Source of the DNA: a virus
Strand: one strand, 5' to 3'
IMG/VR virus record: IMGVR_UViG_3300002123_000031
Coordinates: 1-24,077 of that record
Length of the DNA: 24,077 bases
Below, piece after piece: positions 654 to 804 of the stretch. Made by a program: the position numbers and the translations under genes. The first letter of the stretch is position 1, and each line of letters opens with the position of its first letter. The notes below the pieces were generated by a model that was given only the letters and a program-made list of their open reading frames with translations, was not told where the DNA came from and searched no databases.

Positions 654-804
654 TTGATGCCGGTGCGATGAAGTGGGATACTTCGTACATTGGTTCGAAT
701 CCAATACCAGATTGCGGTCTGGTTGGCAGAGTGGCTTAATGCTACGGGAATGCAAAAGTTCCCTATACGGGAAAATGCCTACTTCGCTTGGTTCTCGGCG
801 TCAA
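654..804 (+). ncRNA. Y-like RNA 7 with permuted class II-like tRNA mimic
   Basis: The outer helix is 654-662/796-804 (one G-U). The 5' loop is 663-669 (GUGCGAU) and the 3' loop 786-795 ends UUGGUUCU. The inner helix is 670-677/778-785, 8 of 8 paired and different in sequence from the other copies. UACUUC is at 679-684. The insert runs T-arm 689-705 (5 bp, loop UUCGAAU), acceptor-like helix 706-711/718-723 closed by a short loop, then a D-arm 726-742 with a 3-bp GCA/UGC stem and GAGUGGCUUAA loop as in leucine or serine tRNAs. A 4-bp helix 684-687/743-746 stands where the anticodon stem would be. It overlaps the last base of UACUUC and competes for base 746 with the next hairpin, 746-750/759-763. 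Confidence 0.83.

Follow-up and report, generated by a model that had tools for sequence, protein, structure and literature searches.

The stretch analysed here (the window, 24,077 nucleotides of viral DNA) begins with an array of small RNAs, two of which, RNA 3 and RNA 7, look like tRNAs whose arms stand in a permuted order and whose D-arms belong to different tRNA classes. What are these RNAs, and what might a second class be for? The window is a 24-kb virus record, and a stretch identical to it is found within longer contigs; one of these, of 79 kb, carries portal, terminase and major head genes, and the virus is therefore a tailed phage. The small-RNA array occupies bases 1-1036, and a Ro60 gene lies downstream of it. 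The features of the window are as follows.

1 to 70, plus strand: RNA 1, a Y RNA with a short loop (common 5' and 3' motifs; upstream sequence in L002)
200 to 343, core 248 to 307, plus strand: RNA 3, a YrlA-type Y RNA with a class I module (Rfam YrlA; covariance model R1)
534 to 652, plus strand: RNA 6, a Y RNA with two loop hairpins (common motifs; fold)
654 to 804, plus strand: RNA 7, a YrlA-type Y RNA with a serine-type permuted tRNA-like module (closing stem TTGATGCCGG/CGGCGTCAA; fold)
654 to 687, plus strand: 5' strand of the RNA 7 Y stem, presumed to bind Ro60, with motif GTGCGATGAAGTGGGATACTTC (repeated motif)
689 to 705, plus strand: RNA 7 T-arm, 5 bp, ATTGG-TTCGAAT-CCAAT (sequence; model R1)
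706 to 723, plus strand: RNA 7 acceptor-like hairpin, 7 bp, ACCAGAT (706-712), TGCG, GTCTGGT (717-723) (pairing kept in L005 and L204)
726 to 742, plus strand: RNA 7 serine/leucine-type D-arm, GCA-GAGTGGCTTAA-TGC, 3 bp with an 11-nt loop (tRNA-Ser word; stem kept in L204)
746 to 763, plus strand: RNA 7 hairpin 3' of the D-arm, GGGAA-TGCAAAAG-TTCCC (pair probability 0.94-0.99; identical in L005)
778 to 804, plus strand: 3' strand of the RNA 7 Y stem, CCTACTTCGC...TTCTCGGCGTCAA (pairs with the 5' strand in the fold)
901 to 1033, plus strand: RNA 8, a Y RNA (common motifs; fold; weak R1 match to the T-arm only, 968-980)
1706 to 3256, plus strand: Ro60/Rsr orthologue with TROVE and vWA domains (Pfam TROVE, E 3e-17; vWA_Ro60, E 1.4e-4, under its cut-off)
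7398 to 8147, plus strand: RlaP-like nucleotidyltransferase of an RNA-repair-linked family (Pfam RlaP, E 6.8e-24)

Five RNAs of the array have in common, with variations, the motifs 5' GGTGCG...GGGTTACTTC and 3' ACCTT...TTCTC, and GTGCGATGAAGTGGGATACTTC recurs at 3, 205, 660 and 905; RNA 1 starts just upstream of the window. It can be seen from the fold of bases 653-811 and from the common motifs that a long 5'/3' stem encloses the tRNA-like module of RNA 7, and because the module is carried on this stem the RNA (654-804) is longer than was first proposed. Within the module, the loop TGCG of the acceptor-like hairpin connects the 3' strand to the 5' strand. In RNA 3 the module consists of a T-arm (248-264), an acceptor hairpin (265-289) and a 4-bp D-arm, GCTC-AGTTGGCA-GAGC; the order is identical in the two RNAs, and each module sits in the loop of a Y RNA. 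The initial annotation had described the shared permuted order, which direct reading, a permuted-tRNA descriptor and model R1 all support, the 3-bp D-arm with its 11-nt loop in RNA 7 beside an ordinary class I arm in RNA 3, which the sequence bears out, and a hairpin with an 8-nt loop 3' of the RNA 7 D-arm, which lies at 746-763. Its anatomy was right in every detail, but it left the Y stem and Ro60 unrecognised.

Permuted RNAs of this kind have been described. YrlA can be superposed on tRNA once a circular permutation is allowed for (PMC11472068); the tRNA-like domain of YrlA is bound by PNPase and modified by DusA and TruB, and its Y stem binds Ro60 (PMC8394870). Judged by their sequences, RNA 3 and RNA 7 are YrlA-type Y RNAs, and their permuted tRNA fold is already published: they share with the YrlA Y RNA (RF02553; PDB 6CU1) the Ro60-linked position, the Y stem and the order of T-arm, acceptor hairpin and D-arm. 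Unlike YrlA, RNA 7 carries a D-arm of serine/leucine type with a 3-bp stem and, 3' of it, an extra hairpin, and of the two RNAs only RNA 3 is similar to the Rfam model (35 bits, E 1.8e-5, under the gathering score of 69, which is a library cut-off and no biological feature); RNA 7 was not listed in the RF02553 search of the window. The cut-off is narrow, since all of the eight Ro60 loci tested, two of them from Streptomyces, failed to reach it. RNA 7 is thus a rare class II variant of the known YrlA family, and ordinary in kind.

On both strands of the window the descriptor matched the RNA 3 and RNA 7 sites only (scores 18.0 and 16.5); shuffled windows gave 0.285 matches each, and the best score in 200 shuffles was 16.0. 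Model R1, trained on 50 Ro60-linked class I mimics from other genomes with close relatives excluded, matched RNA 3 at 58.5 bits (E 1.8e-12) and RNA 7 at 32.2 bits (E 2.1e-6), the next site having an E of 0.23; its training set was picked by a descriptor that demands pairing, and pair counts in that set are therefore no test of structure. RNA 7 folds at −57.6 kcal/mol (z −3.63). The energy model gives its 3-bp D-stem a probability of 0.01-0.02 and favours GUGGC-UUAAU-GCUAC instead. At the level of sequence, then, the D-arm assignment rests on homology, and thermodynamic folding prefers another hairpin; that hairpin is impossible in the L204 orthologue, which favours the D-arm reading. Neither ARAGORN nor Rfam called a functional tRNA gene in the native sequence of RNA 7, and ARAGORN made a call only once the RNA had been un-permuted. 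Such calls were obtained in 587/1000 cases when the hairpin at 746-763 was shuffled, in 100/1000 when the D-arm was shuffled and in 44/1000 when both were. Because most calls survive shuffling of the hairpin, they depend mainly on the D-arm, and the strong claim that the hairpin is an anticodon arm was dropped; its likeness to one is weak, and so is the hint that it gives of a four-arm mimic.

To which tRNA class does the D-arm belong? The 18-nt D-arm word of RNA 7 occurs in IMG/VR in 44 ARAGORN-called tRNAs (39 serine, 1 leucine, 1 cysteine and 3 with other calls), many of the contigs being near-duplicates, and the leucine/serine type proposed at the outset is thereby confirmed. A cysteine tRNA, suggested by GCAAAA in the loop, was ruled out as the parent, since the word stands almost throughout in serine tRNAs. 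A parent in the phage itself was likewise rejected: the single ARAGORN tRNA of the 79-kb related contig is a tRNA-Tyr, and one further Rfam tRNA match there lacks an ARAGORN call. Of the class II (Ser/Leu) features, RNA 7 has the 3-bp D-stem with a long loop, and in the hairpin test it lacks the long variable arm 5' of the T-arm. The hairpin scored at that place comes from self-pairing of the conserved Y motif (GAAGT/ACTTC), and none was reported there in the RNA 7 orthologues of L205 and L204.

Both mimics are also present in the related arrays L005 and L204, whose Ro60 is 76% and 77% identical respectively. Over the three arrays identity is 0.80-0.83 within the RNA 3 group, 0.73-0.92 within the RNA 7 group (0.92 for the L005 orthologue, 7514-7665) and 0.63-0.74 between the groups, and the Y stems mark the groups as well, with GGGATACTTC in that of RNA 7 and GGGTTACTTC in that of RNA 3. 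The acceptor stem ACCAGAT/GTCTGGT of RNA 7 becomes CATGTGC/GTGCATG in L005 and CGGTTAC/GTAACTG in L204 with its pairing intact, and in L204 the T-stem has changed on both sides and still pairs. Throughout, the D-arm of the RNA 7 group stays at 3 bp with an 11-nt loop, and the RNA 3 orthologues are class I in all three arrays. The L204 orthologue keeps the GCA/TGC D-stem with a different, leucine-like loop and lacks the 746-763 hairpin; in L005 the 41 nt of D-arm plus hairpin, the hairpin included, are the same as in the window, against a DNA identity of 72% for the Ro60 gene. The proposal that one array holds mimics of two D-arm classes therefore extends to all three related arrays, where each class forms an orthologue group of its own; a single class with neutral variation is not supported, for the classes are kept while the acceptor stems change and remain paired.

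Other parts of the array and window were recorded as well. The loop of RNA 8 holds a hairpin, a T-arm and an acceptor-like minihelix and no D-arm. Its counterparts in L005 (about 7290-7425) and L204 (about 1110-1210) have the hairpin and T-arm, again without a D-arm, and the minihelix is present in two of these three RNAs; the RNA 8 type is a partial tRNA mimic. A relative of RNA 6 in L005 (about 7055-7190) carries D-arm-like and anticodon-arm-like hairpins in normal order without a T-arm, a pair that RNA 6 of the window lacks. Four long hairpin RNAs without Y motifs stand between the Y RNAs (84-178, 350-432, 437-542 and 810-898), the second keeping its words GCGTATGGTGTGCAGGGAGATCCTGCAACA in L005. 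A consensus scan for promoters and terminators inside the array counted no more than in shuffled sequence. Immediately 5' of RNA 1 stands TTGACA-N17-TAAGCT (L003, about 6262-6292), and L204 and L005 have comparable words; it may be a promoter serving the entire array, and the consensus scan missed it. The L005 array also contains an Rfam manA RNA (7680-7856, 57.4 bits, gathering score 55.2), a type known from cyanophages and marine metagenomes (PMC2864571). At 19190-21562 of the window, a single protein combines uracil-DNA glycosylase, 3'-5' exonuclease and family A DNA polymerase domains.

Chen et al. (2014) are reported to have identified probable Y RNAs in the neighbourhood of Ro60 in over 250 species of bacteria and phages. 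Our survey covered 172 Ro60 loci, namely 80 viral contigs (of 216 Ro60 relatives in IMG/VR), 80 actinobacterial genomes and 12 named or other phages; tandem tRNA genes, which imitate the permuted order by chance, were removed by a filter. At least 142 loci had a mimic no more than 2.2 kb upstream of Ro60, and 57 of them had several. The GCTC/GAGC D-stem occurred in 155 mimics, and serine/leucine-type D-arms in at most nine loci from about five lineages: the window clade (three), L097, L257, L272 and Streptomyces L288, L312 and L329, with L257 and L272 counted less certainly (the score of L272 is just 14.0). Mimics of both classes occur together in the window-related arrays L201, L204 and L205 as well as in L097, L257, L288 and L312; L272 has a class I match by covariance model, and none was found in the survey at L329. 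Unlike D-arm types were present in 34 of the 57 multi-mimic loci, where random dealing expects 32.5 ± 1.9 (P 0.30), and so there is no sign of selection for D-arm variety. Permuted tRNA-like modules, some of them serine-type, were also seen in two phage contigs (101 and 123 kb) in which no TROVE gene could be detected, L098 (about 6900-7900) and L154 (11400-11850). Deposited tRNAs overlap Ro60-adjacent mimics in GiJojo (L008, 5769-5843, Arg), Alone3 (L015, 5774-5847, Ser), Frankenweenie (L013, 5745-5835, Pro) and VanLee (L011, 5632-5703, Arg); these annotations probably mistake Y RNAs for tRNAs.

The three Streptomyces loci resemble RNA 7 in permuted order, class II D-arm and position next to Ro60, and differ from it in having a long variable arm 5' of the T-arm. 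There, a 7-bp hairpin ending in CGT immediately precedes the T-arm, as in tRNA-Leu; in phage L097 the hairpin at this place has 6 bp. Of 210 class I mimics, 31 were also positive in the hairpin test, in most cases because of the conserved CTTC motif, and the claim is therefore limited to these four cases, whose hairpin is clear of that motif: in them a long variable arm accompanies the class II D-arm. It is the proximal Y RNA of the Streptomyces loci that has the leucine-type D-arm, the long variable arm and a stem at the place of the anticodon stem. The D-arm is two bases off the hosts' own tRNA-Leu(GAG). D-arm and variable arm switch together, and T-arm and acceptor resemble those of the class I neighbours' Y RNAs, a pattern that in sequence looks like part exchange or convergence and not capture of a whole tRNA.

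By analogy with YrlA, we lean towards the view that RNA 7 is a phage YrlA-type Y RNA which, with its stem on Ro60, offers a tRNA elbow to a host protein that recognises tRNAs. The basal stem would be bound by the phage's own Ro60, and the loop module, as in the solved YrlA structure, would form the elbow by contact between D-loop and T-loop. Presenting the elbow may bring Ro60 and its bound RNA to the host protein, as the Y RNA does with PNPase, or may keep that protein occupied. RNA 3 would show a class I elbow and RNA 7 a serine/leucine-type one, and the two may differ in partner or in binding strength. The arrangement is like the Deinococcus Rsr-Y RNA-PNPase complex (RYPER) in that Ro60 carries a Y RNA reaching to an effector; here, in contrast, Ro60 and RNAs are phage-encoded, an array has several Y RNAs and the effector is a presumed one.

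The main rival is that the modules are decoys, RNA 3 and RNA 7 covering different tRNA classes and occupying a host nuclease that cuts tRNAs as an anti-phage defence. We regard this as unlikely. YrlA has been proposed as a competitive inhibitor of an anticodon nuclease (PMC7790460), and the RNA 7 hairpin occupies the position of an anticodon arm; yet the hairpin has an 8-nt loop without a clear anticodon and is absent in L204, RNA 3 lacks an anticodon arm altogether, and loci are no more diverse in class than random dealing would make them. RlaP is encoded in the same genome as the array, and in phages JustBecause, Neville and VanLee a gene for RNA ligase or polynucleotide kinase is found close to Ro60; such RNA repair genes in the neighbourhood of Ro60 in several phages would fit either effector recruitment or decoys.

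Equally doubtful, in our judgement, is neutral variation, by which any D-arm that supports an elbow suffices and a serine-type arm drifted or was copied in with function unchanged. D-arm types are distributed over loci as if at random, they switch between otherwise similar Y RNAs in Streptomyces, and the loop is leucine-like in L204 and serine-like in its relatives; but both classes are maintained in three related arrays, the 41-nt D-arm and hairpin are unchanged in L005, and the joint occurrence of class II D-arm and long variable arm in three Streptomyces and L097 is unexpected for drift of one arm. Within the reading that we prefer, an elbow on a Ro60-bound stem, the serine-type class may still be a tolerated variant without a role of its own, because D-arm diversity within loci is at the random level. 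That same comparison (34 against 32.5) gives nothing to the initial suggestion that each mimic imitates a different substrate, of which the existence and upkeep of two classes stand; separate capture from tRNAs is only half right, since the common Y stem motifs make RNA 3 and RNA 7 paralogues, and the initial interpretation as a whole holds in part. Least probable of all is the fullest version, in which class I and class II mimics side by side each recruit a different host protein and RNA 7 is a near-complete permuted four-arm tRNA on a Ro60 handle.

The only effector role that we found described for a bacterial Y RNA is the tethering of PNPase. Paired mimics that share an array and a Y stem and belong to different tRNA classes offer a ready comparison for asking if the choice of partner depends on elbow class, and the leucine-type form of Streptomyces with its variable arm provides a wider, more testable and cultivable system for that question.
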